Source: Chloroflexota bacterium (lineage in GTDB: Bacteria > Chloroflexota > Chloroflexia > Chloroflexales > Chloroflexaceae). Taken from it: 44,713 bases of DNA. The position numbers and the translations under genes are program-made. The first letter of the stretch is position 1. Each line of letters opens with the position of its first letter. Location of the stretch: the NCBI GenBank assembly GCA_030550625.1, contig JAUQOZ010000193.1:1-44713 (forward strand), read 5' to 3'. Below the pieces are notes generated by a model, which searched no databases, was not told where the DNA came from, and saw nothing but the letters and a program-made list of their open reading frames with translations. Shown here piece after piece: positions 10,984-32,887 of the stretch.

Positions 10984-11115
10984 ACATAGGGGAGGATACA
11001 ACGTCTTTACTAAGTTAATCGACACCGATGTGATCTATCCTTGCCAACGTGTTATCCTGTTCACATCATTGCTTTACAGTATCTTATGTGCGTGCAGCAA
11101 GGACAACAGGACACT

Positions 11116-12000
11116 ATGGCAACTCTGGAACCGCCAAGCACATCGATAACAAGCACTCCTTCCTCTGCCTCGACAGAGATGTCGCTTACCCCAATAATTA
11201 TCGAGCCGCGCAAAGGATGGTGGCAGTTCAATTGGCGCGATCTGTGGGCCTACCGCGAACTGCTCTTTTTTCTGGTTTGGCGCGATGTCAAAGTGCGCTA
11301 CAAACAGACCTTGCTCGGCGCTAGTTGGGCTATCATCCAGCCGGTTTTACAATTAGTTGTGTTTACCATCATCTTTGGGCGGTTGGCCGGCGTCAATACC
11401 AACGGCATTCCCTATCCGTTGTTCAATTTAGCTGGGTTGTTGCCGTGGCAGTTTTTCGCGAATACGGTCGGCCAAGCAGCGAATAGTCTGGTCGGCAGCG
11501 CCAACATCGTGCGCAAAGTCTATTTTCCGCGGCTAGCTATTCCCACCGCCAGCGTGCTGGCTGGTGTGGTCGATTTTGGCTTGTCGTTTCTGATCTTGCT
11601 CGCTTTGATGGTCTGGTATCAGTGGCCGCCGTCACCGGCTGTCTTCCTCTTGCCGATCTTCTTACTGCTGGCGATGATCACGGCGCTCGGCGTCGGGTAT
11701 TGGCTTTCAGCCATTAATGCCCGTTACCGCGATGTGCGCCATGCCACTCCATTTCTCGTGCAGCTTTGGCTGTTTGCCACGCCGGTCGTCTATCCCAGCA
11801 ACCTGATTGAAGGCTACTGGCAATTGCTCTACGCCCTCAACCCGATGGTTGGTGTCGTCGAGGGCTTTCGCTGGGCGTTGATTGGAACCCAGCCACCCAG
11901 CATGCTGTTACTGGTGTCGGTGACAACGGCGATCACGATCTTTTTCACCGGTTTGCTCTACTTCCAATCAGTCGAACGCAAATTTGCCGATGTGATTTAG
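11116..12000 (+). CDS. Polysaccharide ABC transporter permease (Wzm-type, ABC-2)
   Basis: RDLWAYRELLFFLVWRDVKVRYKQTLLGASWAIIQPVLQLVVFTIIFGRLAGV...YPLFNLAGLLPWQFFANTVGQAANSLVGSANIVRKVYFPRLAIP; start trimmed to ATG 11116 preceded by AGGA. Confidence 0.93.
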   Translation: MATLEPPSTSITSTPSSASTEMSLTPIIIEPRKGWWQFNWRDLWAYRELLFFLVWRDVKVRYKQTLLGASWAIIQPVLQLVVFTIIFGRLAGVNTNGIPYPLFNLAGLLPWQFFANTVGQAANSLVGSANIVRKVYFPRLAIPTASVLAGVVDFGLSFLILLALMVWYQWPPSPAVFLLPIFLLLAMITALGVGYWLSAINARYRDVRHATPFLVQLWLFATPVVYPSNLIEGYWQLLYALNPMVGVVEGFRWALIGTQPPSMLLLVSVTTAITIFFTGLLYFQSVERKFADVI

Positions 12001-12003
12001 CCT

Positions 12004-13272
12004 ATGCAGTACGCAATTCGGGCGCGTGATTTAGCCAAACAGTACCAGATCGGCGCGCTCAAACAGCGCAATGCCGGATATGTGACGTTGCGCGATGCGA
12101 TTGTCGAACGCCTGCGTGGCCGGCGGGCCAAACCGGCCACCACCGAGCTGTGGGCGCTCAACGGGGTGTCGTTTGATGTGCAGCAGGGCGAAGTGGTTGG
12201 TATTATTGGCCGGAATGGCGCCGGCAAGAGCACCTTGCTCAAGGTGCTCTCGCGCATCACTGAGCCGACGCGCGGGCGGGCCGAGCTGTATGGCCGGGTG
12301 GCTTCGTTGCTCGAAGTTGGCACCGGTTTTCACCCTGAATTGACCGGGCGCGAGAATATCTATCTCAACGGCGCGATTCTCGGTATGCGCAAGCGCGAAA
12401 TTGACCGCAATTTCGATGCGATCGTCGATTTTGCCGAGGTGGAGCAATTTATTGACACGCCGGTCAAGTTCTACTCGTCGGGGATGTATGTGCGGTTGGC
12501 GTTTGCGGTTGCCGCGCATCTCGAACCGGAGATTTTGATCGTTGATGAGGTGCTGGCCGTCGGTGACGCCCGGTTTCAGAAGAAGTGCCTCAACAAGATG
12601 CAAGACGTTGGCCAGCAAGGGCGGACGGTGCTGTTTGTTTCGCACAGCATGCAGTCGATCTTGCGCATGTGCCAGCGCGCGATTTTGCTTCATCAGGGCA
12701 AAGTCGTAGCCGATGGGCCGGCCCAACAGGTGGTGGGCGTCTATCTCGGCAAAGGGGCGCATTCGATTGCCGAGCGAGTGTGGCCTGATCGGGCGAGCGC
12801 GCCGGGCAAAGAGGTGGCCTATCTGTGCGCGGTGCGTGTGCGTGATGCCGATGGCGACATCAGCGATACGATTGATATTCGCTCGCCGGTGACGATTGAA
12901 ATGGAGTTTGTCGTCACGCTCGGCGGGTATGTCTTGTTGCCGCATTTCCGCCTCTACAACGAAGATAACGTGGCGGTTTTCACTACGCTCGATCTCGACC
13001 CGGAATGGCGGCGGCGGCCCCGCCCTCCCGGCAAGTATTGGGCGCGAGTGACCATCCCCGGCAATTTTCTCGCTGAAGGCTCATTGTATGTGGAAGCAGC
13101 CTTGACCACGCTTGATCCGCCGATCAAGCAGTTTGCCGAACGCGATGCGGTGGCGTTTCAAGTCATCGACAGCCTTGAAGGCGATACGGCGCGCGGCGAT
13201 TGGGCCGGCAGCCTGTCGGGAGTAGTGCGCCCCGTCTTGCCGTGGACGACGACCTATGAGCCACTTGCTTGA
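12004..13272 (+). CDS. Polysaccharide ABC transporter ATP-binding protein with C-terminal Wzt-like domain
   Basis: GIIGRNGAGKSTLLKVLSRITEPTRG, YSSGMYVRLAFAVAAHLEPEILIVDEVLAVGD, plus about 170-aa C-terminal extension typical of Wzt. Confidence 0.94.
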   Translation: MQYAIRARDLAKQYQIGALKQRNAGYVTLRDAIVERLRGRRAKPATTELWALNGVSFDVQQGEVVGIIGRNGAGKSTLLKVLSRITEPTRGRAELYGRVASLLEVGTGFHPELTGRENIYLNGAILGMRKREIDRNFDAIVDFAEVEQFIDTPVKFYSSGMYVRLAFAVAAHLEPEILIVDEVLAVGDARFQKKCLNKMQDVGQQGRTVLFVSHSMQSILRMCQRAILLHQGKVVADGPAQQVVGVYLGKGAHSIAERVWPDRASAPGKEVAYLCAVRVRDADGDISDTIDIRSPVTIEMEFVVTLGGYVLLPHFRLYNEDNVAVFTTLDLDPEWRRRPRPPGKYWARVTIPGNFLAEGSLYVEAALTTLDPPIKQFAERDAVAFQVIDSLEGDTARGDWAGSLSGVVRPVLPWTTTYEPLA

Positions 13273-16510: not shown

Positions 16511-16554
16511 TGGCCGTTCGTGAACGCTAGCCGTATAGTGTGGAGAATAAACGC

Positions 16555-17877
16555 ATGTTCCATCAATTGATGAACCGCATCCATGATCGTTCAGCCAAGG
16601 TCGGCGTGATCGGGCTGGGCTATGTTGGCTTGCCGCTCGCCGAACGCGCTGGCCGGGTTGGCTTTCCGGTGTTGGGGTTTGATGTCAGCCCTGAGCGTGT
16701 CGCGCACGTCAATCAGGGTGAGAGTTATATCGGCGATGTCGCGAGCAGTGCGCTGGCCGCGCTGCGCGCAGCGGGCCGGATCGAGGCGACAACCGATATG
16801 GCGCGGTTGCGTGAATGCGATGTTCTGGTCATCTGTGTACCCACGCCGCTGAATGCTACCCGTGAGCCTGATATGCGCTATGTCGAAGCAGCGAGCAATG
16901 AGATTGCCGCTAGCATTCGGCCCGGCCAACTGGTCATTCTCGAAAGTACCACCTATCCCGGCACCACCCGCGAGCTGATCATGCCGCGGATCGAGCGCGA
17001 TGGATTGCGGGTAGGCGATCAGATCTTTCTCGCCTTTTCACCCGAACGGATCGACCCCGGCCAGACGAGCAGCAAAGGCTTTAGTGTGGAAAATACGCCC
17101 AAAGTGGTTGGCGGGGTGACGGCTCACTGCACCGAATTGGCCGGCGCCTTCTACGGCTATATCACCAGCCGGGTCGTGCCGGTCAGCTCGCCGGATGTGG
17201 CGGAGCTGACCAAACTGTTCGAGAATATCTTTCGCGCCGTCAATATTGCGCTGGTCAATGAGCTAGCCTTGCTCTGCGACCGGATGGGGATCGACGTGTG
17301 GGAGGTGATCGAGGCGGCGGCGACCAAGCCCTACGGGTTTATGAAATTTACCCCCGGCCCCGGCCTTGGCGGTCACTGCATTCCGATTGATCCCTTCTAT
17401 TTGACGTGGAAGGCGCGCGCGTTTGATCTCACCACCCGGTTTATCGAACTGGCCGGCGAGATTAATGCGCAGATGCCGCGCCACGTGCATGATCTGGTCA
17501 TTCGCGCGCTCAATCGGGCGCGTAAGCCGCTCAACGGCAGTACGATTCTGCTGCTGGGCATTGCCTACAAACCTGATGTTGACGACTACCGCGAATCACC
17601 GGCATTTAAGGTGTACGATCTGTTAACCGCCGACGGCGCGACGGTGATACCGTGCGATCCGCATATCGATGAGTTTGAAATGCATGATGGCCGTCGTATG
17701 CGCACGATACCCTTGAGCGATGATCTGTTGCAGAGCTGCGATTGCGCGGTCATCATTACTAATCATCGCGCTTTCGATTACGAGCGGATTGTCACCTTAG
17801 CGCCGGTAGTGGTTGATACGCGCAACGCGACGCGGGCGATCCAAGGGCCGCTGCGCGCCAAGATTACAGTATTGTAG
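16555..17877 (+). CDS. Nucleotide sugar dehydrogenase (UDP-N-acetylhexosamine 6-dehydrogenase, WbpA/VipA-like)
   Basis: KVGVIGLGYVGLPLAERAGRVGFPVLGFDVS, VPTPLNATREPDM, LESTTYPGTTREL, FSPERIDPGQ, FTPGPGLGGHCIPIDPFYLTWKA; GGHCIPIDP catalytic-Cys motif is WbpA/WecC type rather than Ugd type. Confidence 0.9.
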   Translation: MFHQLMNRIHDRSAKVGVIGLGYVGLPLAERAGRVGFPVLGFDVSPERVAHVNQGESYIGDVASSALAALRAAGRIEATTDMARLRECDVLVICVPTPLNATREPDMRYVEAASNEIAASIRPGQLVILESTTYPGTTRELIMPRIERDGLRVGDQIFLAFSPERIDPGQTSSKGFSVENTPKVVGGVTAHCTELAGAFYGYITSRVVPVSSPDVAELTKLFENIFRAVNIALVNELALLCDRMGIDVWEVIEAAATKPYGFMKFTPGPGLGGHCIPIDPFYLTWKARAFDLTTRFIELAGEINAQMPRHVHDLVIRALNRARKPLNGSTILLLGIAYKPDVDDYRESPAFKVYDLLTADGATVIPCDPHIDEFEMHDGRRMRTIPLSDDLLQSCDCAVIITNHRAFDYERIVTLAPVVVDTRNATRAIQGPLRAKITVL

Positions 17878-19637: not shown

Positions 19638-21368
<1,731 letters not shown>

Positions 21369-21369
21369 T

Positions 21370-22152
21370 ATGCTCAATGTCTTCCGTAGCGCGCGCCGCA
21401 CGCTGCGCCGTTGGATCAAGGGGCCGCATGCCGATCTGGGGTTTAAGCCCCAGCCTGACTTCTATTACCTCGCCTCGTTCCCGAAGTCGGGCAACACGTG
21501 GGTGCGTTTTCTGCTTGCCAATCTGCTGGCCGGCGAGGAGCTGGGCTTGCAGGGATTTGGCCGGTATGTGCCCGATAGCCATATCAAAGGCGATCTAACG
21601 TATATGGCCGACCCGGCCACGCCGTTCAACCAGATGCGGCCGCGCTTCGTGAAGACCCATCTTCACTATCGCCCGATCTTCCGCCGCGCGATCTACATTG
21701 TGCGCGATGGGCGCGACGCGATGACCTCGTATTACCACTGGCGCAATAAACGGTCAAATCAGCCGGTTACGCTGCGCGAGATTATTACCGGCAGTATCTA
21801 CTGGGGTAGGTGGTCGGATCATGTGCTGGGCTGGCTGAACAGTGGCTGCGAGTTGCTCGTGGTGAAGTACGAAGACCTCTACGCCGATACTGCTGGGCAA
21901 GTGCGCCGCATCCTTCATTTTTGCGGGATGCGGGCAAGCGATGAACAGATTGCGGCGGCAGTGGCTGCCTCGTCGTTTGACCGGATGCGGGCGAAAGAAC
22001 AGGCGGCGCAGGGCGCTGCCACGCCGTTGTTCGTTCGCAAGGGCGGATCGGGCGATTGGCGCAATCTCTTTTCGCCAGAGGACGAAGAACTTTTTTGGCG
22101 TTACCACCGCGCTGGTATGCTGGCAGCCGGGTATGGCGATCGCAGCGGGTGA
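21370..22152 (+). CDS. PAPS-dependent sulfotransferase
   Basis: 5'-phosphosulfate-binding-like loop SFPKSGNTWVRFLLANLL and 3'-phosphate-binding motif AIYIVRDGRDAMTSYYHW; LLVVKYEDLYADTAGQVRRILHFCG; ATG 2 nt after the preceding stop. Confidence 0.93.
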   Translation: MLNVFRSARRTLRRWIKGPHADLGFKPQPDFYYLASFPKSGNTWVRFLLANLLAGEELGLQGFGRYVPDSHIKGDLTYMADPATPFNQMRPRFVKTHLHYRPIFRRAIYIVRDGRDAMTSYYHWRNKRSNQPVTLREIITGSIYWGRWSDHVLGWLNSGCELLVVKYEDLYADTAGQVRRILHFCGMRASDEQIAAAVAASSFDRMRAKEQAAQGAATPLFVRKGGSGDWRNLFSPEDEELFWRYHRAGMLAAGYGDRSG

Positions 22153-25363: not shown

Positions 25364-26773
25364 TTGGAACTTAGAAACTATCTTCTCTTCGTGTGGCGCT
25401 GGGCATGGTTACTCATTCTCTTTGCGGCGATTGGCGCAGGCATTGGCTTCGCCTATTCCCAAACCCAACCCCGCTTGTATGCCGCTTCGACCATGCTCAT
25501 GGTGAATCAGGATCAGGGCAACTTCGCCCGGCCTTCTCCCACCTTCGATGATTTGCGCGCGCGGGAACGGTATGCGTTAACAGTGCGCCAGCTCTTGCTG
25601 GTGCGGCCGGTGCTGCAACGGGCGGCTGAGATGGTTGATGGCGTGACTGCTGCTCAACTGGCCGTTCGTGCGAGCACGGCTGACGTCGGCAAGACAGAAT
25701 TGTTTGTGCTGACGGTGCAGGATACCGATCGCCAGCGCGCGGTGGCGTTAGCCGATGCGATCGTGTCCTCGTTCCGCGCGCTTGAGCGTGATCTGCTCGA
25801 TAATCCGTATGCGCAGGGATCGAGCTTGATCGTCGTTGATCCTGCCTATGCCAAGCGCAATCCGGTCAGTCCTGATTATGCTCGCAATATGACGCTCAGC
25901 GTCTTTATTGCTGTTCTGATCGCAATTGTCATTGGCTTTCTCTACGACTATTTCAACACCCGCATCAAAGATGAAGGCGATCTCGACCGGCGCGGCGGCG
26001 GGCGCCCGTTAGTGGTGGTCGGCAAGCTGAAGGGTTCTACGCCGGCGGCGCAGTTGGTGACGCTCAATGATCCAACCTCGCTGGAGGCTGAATCCTACCG
26101 GATGTTTCGCCTGCATCTCGATGCACTGGCGGCGGCCGAGCGTCCGCAAGTGATTGCCATCATTAGTGCCGCAGCCGGCGAAGGGCGTAGCCTGACGGCG
26201 GCTAATTTGGCGGTGGCCTTAGCGCAAACCGGACGGCGCGTCGTGTTGGTTGATGCTAATCTGCGCCATCCAACTATTCATGCCTTTTTTGATCTCGCGA
26301 ATCAAGGCGGGCTGTCGAATCTGCTGGGTGGTTCGGCGCAGGCCATCGAGCCGTTCCTGCGCGTAACAGCCCAGCCTGATCTCTATGTGCTGACGGCAGG
26401 GAATATGGCCGGTTTGCCGGCCCAATTGTTGGGCGGGCCGCAACTTGAGCGGGTGCTCAATGGCTTGCGCCAACACGCCGATGTGGTCATTATCGATACG
26501 GCGCCGTTGCTGATGTTTGCCGATACAACCTTGCTGTTGCGAGCGGTTGATACCACACTGGCGGTCGTGCGCGCCAATCGCACCACTGAGAGCGAATTGC
26601 GCCAAATGCTCGATTTGCTGCGCCAAACTGAGATTGGTTGCATGGGTATGGTGTTGAACAGCGTGAACAAGCGCCCGCGACGGTTGCCGTTTCCCACGGC
26701 GCAACGTCCCCAGCCGGCTGTCTCGTTGCCGGTGTCGCATCGGAGTGAGACAATCGGTGATGCAGGAGATTGA
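25364..26773 (+). CDS. Wzz/chain-length determinant fused to BY-kinase-like (CpsD/CapB) domain, probably degenerate ATPase
   Basis: LELRNYLLFVWRWAWLLILFAAIGAGIGFAYSQTQPRLYAASTMLMVNQD (Wzz N-term); VIAIISAAAGEGRSLTAANLAVALAQTGRRVVLVDANLRHP...ADVVIIDTAPLLMFADTTLLLRAVDTTLAVVRANRT. TTG start at 25364 after GGAGGG preferred to 25316. Confidence 0.85.
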   Translation: MELRNYLLFVWRWAWLLILFAAIGAGIGFAYSQTQPRLYAASTMLMVNQDQGNFARPSPTFDDLRARERYALTVRQLLLVRPVLQRAAEMVDGVTAAQLAVRASTADVGKTELFVLTVQDTDRQRAVALADAIVSSFRALERDLLDNPYAQGSSLIVVDPAYAKRNPVSPDYARNMTLSVFIAVLIAIVIGFLYDYFNTRIKDEGDLDRRGGGRPLVVVGKLKGSTPAAQLVTLNDPTSLEAESYRMFRLHLDALAAAERPQVIAIISAAAGEGRSLTAANLAVALAQTGRRVVLVDANLRHPTIHAFFDLANQGGLSNLLGGSAQAIEPFLRVTAQPDLYVLTAGNMAGLPAQLLGGPQLERVLNGLRQHADVVIIDTAPLLMFADTTLLLRAVDTTLAVVRANRTTESELRQMLDLLRQTEIGCMGMVLNSVNKRPRRLPFPTAQRPQPAVSLPVSHRSETIGDAGD

Positions 26774-26776
26774 ACC

Positions 26777-28297
26777 ATGCGACGTTTTTGGCTCTTTGTG
26801 ATCGCGGTATGTGTGGTGCTGCTGAATGCGTGTAGCCAACCAGCCGCCACAGATAGCGAACCGGCTGTTGCGTCGCCTGTACCAACGGCTGCAACCTCGC
26901 CTGCCGCTGCTCCTACGGCTGCGCCAGCGATTGTGAATGGGACGCTGATTGCCAGTGGCCGGGTGCAGCCGGTCACCGTGCTCGATCTGAGTTTTGTCAA
27001 TGCTGGTTCGGTAGCCGAGGTGTTGGTGAAGCCGGGTGATCGGGTGCGCGCCGGCGACATGTTGGCCAGTCTTGATATTCGCACGCTTGATTTGACGATG
27101 GCTGAGGCGAAGGTGGCGTTGGCTGAAGCGCAGGCCAATTATGAGCTGTTGATCAGTGGGGCTACGCCTGAACAAATCGAGCAGGCACAAGCCGAGATTG
27201 CCCGCGCGCGGGCCCGCGTGGCCGATGGCCGCACCAATGTAACCCAGAGCGATATTGCCGCAGCTCAGGCTGAATTGCGCGAAGCTCGCGAAGTGCTCAA
27301 TCGGTTGCGCAATGGCATTAATCCCGAAGATCGGGCACGGTTAGAGGCGGCAGTAGCCGAGGCGAAGTCTCGTTTGCAGACCCGGATCAACACGCTGGCC
27401 GGCGAAAAGACCCAGCTTGAGTCGCAGATCGAGCGGTTTGCAAACGAACTGCGCAATGCACAAGATGACTATTCGCGCACCAAGTGGGCGAATGAGCAGA
27501 TTGTGGCTGGCGGCGGCCAGTTGACCCAAGCTCAGATCGACAATGAAGCGCGCCTGTTGCGCGCGGTGGAAAACGCCGAGCATCGGTTGCAAGAGGCGCG
27601 GGTTGCGCTTGAGACGGTGCGTCAAAACGAGTTTAGTGAAATTGCTGCTTATCGCGCAATGGTTGAACAAGCGGAAGCGCGGCTAGCTGACGCTTTGCGC
27701 CCGGCGACGCCTGACCAAATCGCCGCTGCTGAAAAGCGGATCTTGCAGGCAGAGGCGCGGTTGGCGCAACTGACCATTAATCATCCGAATGAAGTGGCAG
27801 TGTATGAGGCTGAATTGCGTAAAGCTGAAGCTGATTTGGCGCGTCTGACAGCCAAACCGGCCAGCGCTCAGATCGCGTTGGCGCAAGCGCGTATCGAGCG
27901 CGCCGAGATCGAGTTGCGCAAGATCGAATTGAATCGTGAACGCTATCAGATCCGCGCTCCGATTGACGCAACCGTGGTGAGTGTCAATGCCCAACCCGGC
28001 CAGACGGTTGAGGCTACCCAACGGGTTATTACCATCGCAACGCTTGACCAGTGGCAGATTGTGGTGCCAAATCTCAGCGAAATCCACATTAGTCTGGTGC
28101 AAGAGAACGATCCGGTGACGATTAGCTTCATTGCCCTGCCTGATGTGCGCTTAAGCGGTCGGGTGAGTTATATCGAGCCGGTTGGCCAAGAGAGCGGGAT
28201 TGGCACGACCTACACGGTGCGCATTAAGCCCGATAGCTGGGATCCGCGGTTGCGCTGGAATATGAATGCGCAAGTGACGTTTTCGGCGGGTAGCTGA
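26777..28297 (+). CDS. HlyD/membrane-fusion-like lipoprotein (efflux adaptor type) with long coiled-coil
   Basis: Lipobox MRRFWLFVIAVCVVLLNAC; LIASGRVQPVTVLDLSFVNAGSVAEVLVKPGDRVRAGDMLASLD (lipoyl half); extended Ala/Glu/Arg coiled coil; YQIRAPIDATVVSVNAQPGQTVEATQRVITIA (second lipoyl half). Confidence 0.88.
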   Translation: MRRFWLFVIAVCVVLLNACSQPAATDSEPAVASPVPTAATSPAAAPTAAPAIVNGTLIASGRVQPVTVLDLSFVNAGSVAEVLVKPGDRVRAGDMLASLDIRTLDLTMAEAKVALAEAQANYELLISGATPEQIEQAQAEIARARARVADGRTNVTQSDIAAAQAELREAREVLNRLRNGINPEDRARLEAAVAEAKSRLQTRINTLAGEKTQLESQIERFANELRNAQDDYSRTKWANEQIVAGGGQLTQAQIDNEARLLRAVENAEHRLQEARVALETVRQNEFSEIAAYRAMVEQAEARLADALRPATPDQIAAAEKRILQAEARLAQLTINHPNEVAVYEAELRKAEADLARLTAKPASAQIALAQARIERAEIELRKIELNRERYQIRAPIDATVVSVNAQPGQTVEATQRVITIATLDQWQIVVPNLSEIHISLVQENDPVTISFIALPDVRLSGRVSYIEPVGQESGIGTTYTVRIKPDSWDPRLRWNMNAQVTFSAGS

Positions 28298-31531: not shown

Positions 31532-32887
31532 ATGACCGTTAGCGGGCCGATTATTCTTAATCCCTTGGAATTGGCTGTGCTGGGCCTGATCTGTCTGTAT
31601 GCGGTCTGGCGCGGACGGCCTGAGATTCCGCTGGCGATCTATCTGTCTGTGGCGCTGTGGACGCGCACGGTCTTTGTAGGGCCGAGTGCCGCAACGTGGC
31701 CGCTCTTGGCAGTGACAATACTGGCTCTTATCCGCTATTTGCACGTGGTGCAATCGTGGTCGTTGTTGCCCAAGCGGCTTGATCTGACGACTCGCCAGCT
31801 CTTTCCGCGCAGCGATGCGTGGATCGTGCCTTGGATGGCGTTGTGGTGGGCATGGGCGCTGTGCGTGCTCTTTCAGTTTGAGTTGCGCGATAAGATGTCG
31901 ATAATGCGCCCTCTCTTGCTATTCATTATCATTGCTTCTTTGGTTGCATTCATAGCGATTCGTGATGCCGCTGCCGCCCGCCGGTTTGCTATCGCCTATT
32001 TGCTTACAGGTAGCTATGGGCTTTATGTGGCTCTGCGGTTTATTGAGGTGCCGTTAAGCTACCTGCTCAGCGATCCCGGTCTCTCATCATTGCCATACCG
32101 TAATCTAGGCATTGCCTACTACAATCTTTTCTCGCACCATTTGAGCATTGCCTTTTTGCTGGGCATTGGTCTCTTTTTGCAGGCGCGCCGGCTATGGTCA
32201 ATGACATTCTTTATAGTGTTAGCGCTTTGGTGCGGCTACGGGGTATTTCTCACCGGCGCGCGCCAGTCGTTGAGTGGATCAGGTGTCGCCGCCGCGTTGA
32301 TCTTTGCTTGGGCGTTGAGCCGAGCTGGCAAGAAGCCGTGGCGGGTGCCGTTAGCGATCGCGGCGATTGTGATCGTCGTGGTTGCACTCTACCAAGTGGC
32401 GCCGCATCTGGTGGTGCGTGAAGGCGAGAGCGGTCTCGAAGAGTCGTTCAATGTCTTCGAGGATCGTGGCGGGTTGTGGGCTATTGGCTGGAACTATTTC
32501 CTTGCTTCGCCAGTGTGGGGGTGGGGCTTTGAATACAAACTCTGGTCGCACAACCTTATTGTGGGAACCCTCGCCGATCAAGGATTGGTTGGCATGCTGT
32601 TCTTTATTGGTTATCTGGTTTGGGCTGGCCGGCGCTTGCCAGTGGTATGGGCACAGACGCCTGATGATGATCGTTCGGTTTGGCGGGTGACCTTCTTTGC
32701 GCTGTTTGTGTTCGCGCTTATTCATGGTCAAGCCTCGGGCAATACAATGTCTACCGCTCATCTCCACTGGCCATTATGGGCAGTATGGGCGCTAAGCAAC
32801 GGTGTGATGGTTGCAACTACGCGCCAGCCTTTCCCAACACCGCCGCGCGTCCGCTTGTGCGCCGCGCCGGCAGGAGGACGGTCGTGA
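31532..32887 (+). CDS. O-antigen ligase/polymerase family membrane protein (Wzy/WaaL-like)
   Basis: Multiple TM segments; GYGVFLTGARQSLSGSGVAAALIFAWA; DRGGLWAIGWNYFLASPVWGWGFEYKLWSHNLIVGTLADQGLVGMLFFIGYL matches a Wzy_C-type pattern. Confidence 0.85.
   Translation: MTVSGPIILNPLELAVLGLICLYAVWRGRPEIPLAIYLSVALWTRTVFVGPSAATWPLLAVTILALIRYLHVVQSWSLLPKRLDLTTRQLFPRSDAWIVPWMALWWAWALCVLFQFELRDKMSIMRPLLLFIIIASLVAFIAIRDAAAARRFAIAYLLTGSYGLYVALRFIEVPLSYLLSDPGLSSLPYRNLGIAYYNLFSHHLSIAFLLGIGLFLQARRLWSMTFFIVLALWCGYGVFLTGARQSLSGSGVAAALIFAWALSRAGKKPWRVPLAIAAIVIVVVALYQVAPHLVVREGESGLEESFNVFEDRGGLWAIGWNYFLASPVWGWGFEYKLWSHNLIVGTLADQGLVGMLFFIGYLVWAGRRLPVVWAQTPDDDRSVWRVTFFALFVFALIHGQASGNTMSTAHLHWPLWAVWALSNGVMVATTRQPFPTPPRVRLCAAPAGGRS

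Follow-up and report, generated by a model that had tools for sequence, protein, structure and literature searches.

What can a tyrosine-kinase domain still do in a polysaccharide co-polymerase once its catalytic lysine and its tail tyrosines are gone? The question is raised by a gene in a stretch of 44,713 nucleotides from a Chloroflexota bacterium, hereafter the window, which a sequence-only reading had taken to encode a pseudokinase retained as a structural chain-length or assembly factor. The gene lies on the forward strand (25364-26773) and encodes a protein of 469 residues. It was annotated as a fused Wzz and putative BY-pseudokinase from its translation, from the Pfam domains Wzz and AAA_31, and from the NCBIfam model TIGR01007 (polysaccharide biosynthesis tyrosine autokinase), which it matches with a score of 128.5 bits (cut-off 108). 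Its TTG start was picked from GTGGAGGGTCAC upstream of this codon and from the N-termini of the orthologs.

The Wzz domain together with the first transmembrane helix spans residues 2-87 (25367-25624, forward strand; PF02706, 38 bits), and the AlphaFold2 model of the product contains two predicted membrane helices at residues 2-34 and 172-197. The BY-kinase-like domain follows at residues 224-436 (26033-26671, forward strand), as recognized by TIGR01007 and by a Foldseek match to the CapAB structure 3bfv (TMt 0.92, rmsd 1.7 Å). The mean pLDDT of the model is 83, with values mostly of 86-95 in the kinase domain, and its best match in the PDB is the protomer of the Wzc K540M octamer. The combination of a Wzz part, two transmembrane helices and a BY-kinase fold in one chain places the protein in the PCP-2/BY-kinase family (TIGR01007, PF02706 plus PF13614).

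The translation contains IISAAAGEGRSLTAANLA and VVLVDANLRHP and ends in the tail PRRLPFPTAQRPQPAVSLPVSHRSETIGDAGD. In the Walker A motif SAAAGEGRS (26165-26191, forward strand), lysine is replaced by Arg275, whose CGT codon (26186-26188) is directly readable, as had been claimed. The description of GEGRS as a degenerate GEGKS was right for the Lys-to-Arg exchange and overstated for the rest, since Lys-bearing relatives are variable at the first glycine of GEG too, which was dropped as a diagnostic position; among the highly conserved residues of the P-loop, the exchange is the sole change. In the Walker A' motif VVLVDANLRHP (26240-26272, forward strand), the first aspartate is kept and the second is replaced by asparagine (GAT GCT AAT, 26252-26260), or by histidine in G006. 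DAN for DAD had thus been read correctly, but it is no sign of inactivity on its own: the exchange is recurrent, with 7 changes on the tree, and as it occurs in Lys-bearing relatives too it was dropped as proof of inactivity.

Other parts of the domain are retained. The Walker B aspartate Asp378 (VVIID, 26483-26497, forward strand) is present in every ortholog of the alignment (A1). The protein also keeps the ExxRxxR motif, here ESYRMFR at residues 243-249 (26090-26110, forward strand), which belongs to the octamer interface (PMC3795738) and is the interface motif of an octameric PCP-2 ring. No tyrosine was found in the C-terminal tail (26672-26770, forward strand) nor in the last 80 residues of any genus copy, which bears out the earlier description of the C-terminus. 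The tail is fast-evolving and, in the model, disordered from after residue 437 (pLDDT about 36). Of the features of an active BY-kinase, the Walker A lysine, the Walker A' DxD and the C-terminal tyrosine cluster are absent and the Walker B aspartate is present; a BY-kinase fold that has lost catalytic residues and the tyrosine tail corresponds, in its sequence, to a BY pseudokinase.

Arg275 was found in each of the seven orthologs from the genus, taken here to be Chloroflexus, that reach this position (68-100% identity, three of them from single-contig genomes); the ortholog of G010 ends at a contig edge before the arginine and was left out of the seven. As the residue is invariant in 7/7 orthologs and encoded by all four CGN codons (CGT, CGC, CGG and CGA), it is neither due to chance nor to a base-call error, and a sequencing or assembly error at this codon was ruled out. 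Ser276 of the P-loop, Asp297, Asp378, Asn432 and both arginines of ExxRxxR are also invariant among the aligned genus orthologs. The dN/dS values, which are approximate because dS is near saturation, amount to about 0.07-0.10 for the kinase domain, 0.02-0.11 for the stretch from Walker A to Walker A' and 0.13-0.68 for the tail; on these estimates, purifying selection on the kinase domain is strong. Within the genus, 57% of the positions are invariant in the kinase domain versus 80% in the periplasmic part, and the reading frame is open in every fully read copy except for a break near the N-terminus in the draft genome G012. The last conserved residues of the tail (GD) overlap the AGGAG Shine-Dalgarno sequence of the downstream gene (26764-26768; ATG at 26777), and this overlap is a possible reason why they are conserved. 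The strict retention of the arginine, rather than free drift, suggests that it has a job, which may be either to hold phosphate or to bridge the two remaining aspartates.

The family loci that were read include a Chloroflexaceae MAG and Chloroflexi bacterium OHK40, a member of a sister genus (G031). The OHK40 ortholog (L072) occupies the same syntenic locus and carries lysine (ADGKT), and because of this the ancestral state is most likely lysine, which would have been lost in place. At the same locus, the G016 ortholog (L019) has arginine (REGRT), and three tyrosines lie in its tail inside a span of 15 residues. In a further ortholog, that of G001, threonine stands in the place of lysine (AGTS). 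A tree of 61 sequences gives at least three losses of lysine for these proteins, and the clade of the genus has a long stem (0.72 changes per column) after which arginine remained fixed. That lysine changed to arginine only once, for the genus and G016 together, was also considered. The tree placement is against it, with L019 grouping with the Lys-bearing L021, but one arginine clade is not rejected by the AU test (p = 0.386), so the change may have occurred once or twice there. In a background scan of genome contigs, mostly with generic BY-kinases, arginine was found at 3 of 80 loci. All three (L099 from Isosphaeraceae, L121 from UBP13 and L140 from Hassallia byssoidea) encode BY-kinase-like proteins of other phyla; L140 has GEGRS with DAD and four clustered tyrosines and looks otherwise canonical.

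The gene is part of a polysaccharide cluster whose order, namely GT2, GT4, the co-polymerase gene, a HlyD-type adaptor, sugar-nucleotide enzymes and further GTs, is common to G007, G006, G016 and OHK40. Synteny and dN/dS together show that the gene is retained under selection in a polysaccharide cluster, like that of a BY pseudokinase. The gene that adjoins it downstream (26777-28297, forward strand; PF16576, PF13437) encodes a HlyD/MFP-type lipoprotein adaptor; its Shine-Dalgarno sequence sits inside the end of the co-polymerase gene, the gap between the two genes is 3 bases and their order is kept in the compared clusters, and they likely belong to the same operon. In all compared clusters this adaptor, with its lipobox-like N-terminus LLNACS, stands without a neighbouring ABC gene and is an unusual partner for a PCP.

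The cluster combines the PCP with a Wzm/Wzt-type ABC polysaccharide exporter (11041-13272, forward strand; PF01061, PF00005, and NCBIfam galactan/KpsM matches) and a Wzy_C or O-antigen ligase-like membrane protein (31532-32887, forward strand; PF04932). There was no match to the Wzx flippase family PF01943 in the window, and matches were found only on the other contigs C386, C50 and C299, two of which also carry other pseudokinases. The same cluster contains an ugd-like UDP-sugar dehydrogenase gene (16540-17877). Finally, a fused ATP sulfurylase/APS kinase lies beside a sulfotransferase (19659-22152) and is kept in G006, G007 and G016, which suggests that the polymer made by the cluster is sulfated.

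A second CpsD with intact motifs, which the sequence-only reading had advised to look for, was sought along with other BY-kinase-like proteins in all eight Chloroflexus genomes. A stand-alone CpsD-like protein does exist in 8/8 genomes (in the own genome L159, G000:C369 4721-5377) and it keeps the lysine, but it is degenerate, like two more paralogs: it reads TPEKS throughout the genus where sister genera have DEGKS or a close variant, and genus-wide its reading frame stops just short of the tail (EGGYSY/GYGYYQ) that is retained in sister genera. It lies on a separate contig with two Wzz proteins of its own, and in the two Chloroflexus genomes that were read at this place it is followed by a response regulator gene. 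The other two are a 660-residue Wzc-like protein on C386 (SHERS, DAE, no tyrosine cluster) and a 278-residue protein on C50 (GEGVS). All four BY-kinase-like proteins of the own genome are thus non-canonical (GEGRS, TPEKS, SHERS and GEGVS) and none combines an intact P-loop with a tyrosine tail; the remaining matches examined were of the MinD, Mrp/ApbC, ParA and response-regulator/CpaE types, and an intact second BY-kinase was thus not found in this genome, nor did one turn up in the other Chloroflexus species examined. Sister genera hold canonical fused kinases with an intact Walker A motif and 7-8 clustered tyrosines.

Wzc-like relatives of the 660-residue protein, with 570-690 residues and from many genera of the family, all have Arg-Ser for Lys-Ser and have lost the P-loop glycine (ESRS, EIRS, DARS, TARS, SARS, ERS), and by sequence they are a second, separate case of Lys-to-Arg exchange. 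This group (L004, L189-L192, L195-L200) is apparently an old PCP-2a pseudokinase family of this bacterial family. The CpsB/CapC phosphatase, often encoded directly behind the stand-alone kinase, was found in 0/8 Chloroflexus genomes versus 21/33 other genomes of the family. There is, besides, still a protein of the low-molecular-weight PTP family. The idea that loss of CpsB strictly accompanies loss of the kinase was weakened by the genus g16, which lacks CpsB and yet has stand-alone kinases with lysine and tail tyrosines; for this reason the absence of CpsB is taken as supporting and not as decisive.

From these data, the protein is probably a PCP-2a co-polymerase of the Wzc/CapAB kind in one polypeptide, whose BY-kinase domain would be a pseudokinase acting as a scaffold. 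The retained pseudokinase of the sequence-only reading is accordingly the interpretation that we favour, in view of the fixed arginine, the kept fold and oligomerisation motif, the strong purifying selection, the lack of tail tyrosines and the conserved cluster. The kinase domains of Wzc and CapAB assemble into an octameric ring as long as they are unphosphorylated, and the ring comes apart once the tyrosine tail is phosphorylated (PMC8285477, PMC12004946). With its tail tyrosines gone and its Walker A lysine turned into arginine, the octamer/monomer cycle of the present protein would no longer be driven by phosphorylation of its own tail, while the surface that forms the ring and the larger part of the nucleotide pocket are predicted to be retained. 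Because ExxRxxR, fold and pocket are kept whereas the Walker lysine and the tail tyrosines are lost, we infer that the domain serves as a cytoplasmic ring scaffold, which would keep the Wzz/transmembrane part in a working oligomer and dock partners. ADP or ATP may be held as a structural or switch ligand. In Wzc K540M, phosphorylation is abolished and stable octamers are still formed that take MgADP (PMC8285477, PMC11986026). Moreover, the BY pseudokinases EcpK and HfsB support polysaccharide synthesis (PMC12004946), and by analogy with what has been proposed for them, assembly here may be controlled, and the cycle may run, without tyrosine phosphorylation. The change coincides in Chloroflexus with degenerate states of the remaining BY-kinase paralogs and with a lack of CpsB/CapC.

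Nevertheless, several observations do not fit the pseudokinase scaffold easily. A Lys-to-Arg exchange can leave residual activity, and arginine is also found in the otherwise canonical-looking L140 of Hassallia. The current model of Wzc makes phosphorylation cycling essential, so that another cycling route must be assumed. In addition, the absence of CpsB is shared by g16 with its intact-looking kinases and is not specific, and a low-molecular-weight PTP remains. Overlapping with the scaffold, and possible though tentative, is a nucleotide-driven switch in which Arg275 takes over the phosphate contact of lysine, ATP or ADP is bound and perhaps slowly hydrolysed, and the nucleotide state opens or closes the ring. 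The arginine is strict while its codon drifts, Ser276, Asp297 and Asp378 are kept, arginine is also maintained at the same position in the 570-690-residue Wzc-like family across many genera, and K540M Wzc still takes MgADP, all of which agree with a switch; the deficiency of RAD51 K133R in ATP hydrolysis (PMC10137073) was counted in the same sense. Yet the second Walker A' aspartate is asparagine or histidine, and the Arg-bearing paralog family lacks the P-loop glycine, which points to a structural use of arginine there.

It is unlikely that the protein is an active kinase which has lost only its autophosphorylated tail and acts in trans on other substrates such as the UDP-sugar dehydrogenase of the cluster. 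Phosphorylation of Ugd by BY-kinases has been reported for E. coli (PMC2516531), an ugd-like gene is at hand and L140 shows arginine in a canonical-looking kinase, but mutation of K540 abolishes phosphorylation by Wzc, the second Walker A' aspartate has changed too and a CpsB-type phosphatase is absent. Somewhat more doubtful still is a decoy or regulatory subunit that would form mixed rings with an active BY-kinase, as suggested for CapB1 and CapB2. The precedent is discussed in PMC3795738 and every Chloroflexus genome offers a Lys-keeping stand-alone CpsD as partner; this partner, however, has TPEKS for DEGKS and no tyrosine tail, and it is encoded on another contig beside its own two Wzz proteins. 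The least probable reading is a decaying relic, in which the Wzz part alone would be important and the kinase domain would be in the course of being lost. The long stem branch of the genus and the lower conservation of the kinase domain compared with the periplasmic part would be in line with decay, but the frame is open apart from the break in the draft G012, dN/dS is about 0.1 or less, and the arginine, both remaining aspartates and ExxRxxR are invariant.

BY pseudokinases are already known, including fused forms, from Proteobacteria and Myxobacteria. Sinorhizobium SMc01795 and Mlr8439 are described as fused PCP-2/BY-pseudokinase proteins in PMC12004946, after Cuthbertson et al. 2009, and by that description they resemble the present protein in that a single polypeptide carries a Wzz/transmembrane part and a BY-kinase domain with defective catalysis. 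However, they belong to Gram-negative Proteobacteria, whereas the present case is from Chloroflexota, with a near-complete P-loop, a fixed Lys-to-Arg exchange, a Wzm/Wzt cluster and no Wzx in the window. EcpK of Myxococcus and HfsB of Caulobacter share the BY-kinase fold, the lack of a tyrosine tail, a polysaccharide pathway and a proposed phosphorylation-independent scaffold role. Both are stand-alone proteins and EcpK is devoid of all Walker motifs, while here only the Walker A lysine and the second Walker A' aspartate are changed.

E. coli Wzc has the same PCP-2a layout, and its K540M form, in which the Walker A lysine is also replaced, is the closest full-length fold match. Wild-type Wzc nevertheless has lysine, DxD and the tyrosine tail, K540M was made in the laboratory whereas Arg275 is a natural fixed state, and the periplasmic part is much shorter here. 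As for Staphylococcus aureus, CapAB shares the kinase fold, and CapB1 is a BY-kinase that is inactive by nature. There, though, CapA and CapB are separate polypeptides, and the inactivity of CapB1 in vitro has a different cause, as ADP-Mg is seen bound in its structure. What appears to be new is the Chloroflexota variant with its near-complete nucleotide site and fixed arginine, the second arginine-bearing paralog family and the apparent lack of a canonical BY-kinase in the genus. No report on a Chloroflexus tyrosine kinase was found in the literature searched.

A wider and rather speculative proposal is that Chloroflexus abandons tyrosine phosphorylation in PCP control across all its BY-kinase-like paralogs, with the arginine described here marking a nucleotide-locked or nucleotide-switched ring that would cycle by binding of nucleotide or partners. 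According to the accepted model, PCP-2 proteins need tyrosine phosphorylation cycles for polysaccharide polymerisation and export. A genus in which no BY-kinase-like paralog found has both an intact P-loop and a tyrosine tail, next to sister genera with canonical kinases, is a natural experiment on machinery free of phosphorylation, and its co-polymerase is a natural counterpart of the K540M and K55M laboratory mutants for structural work.
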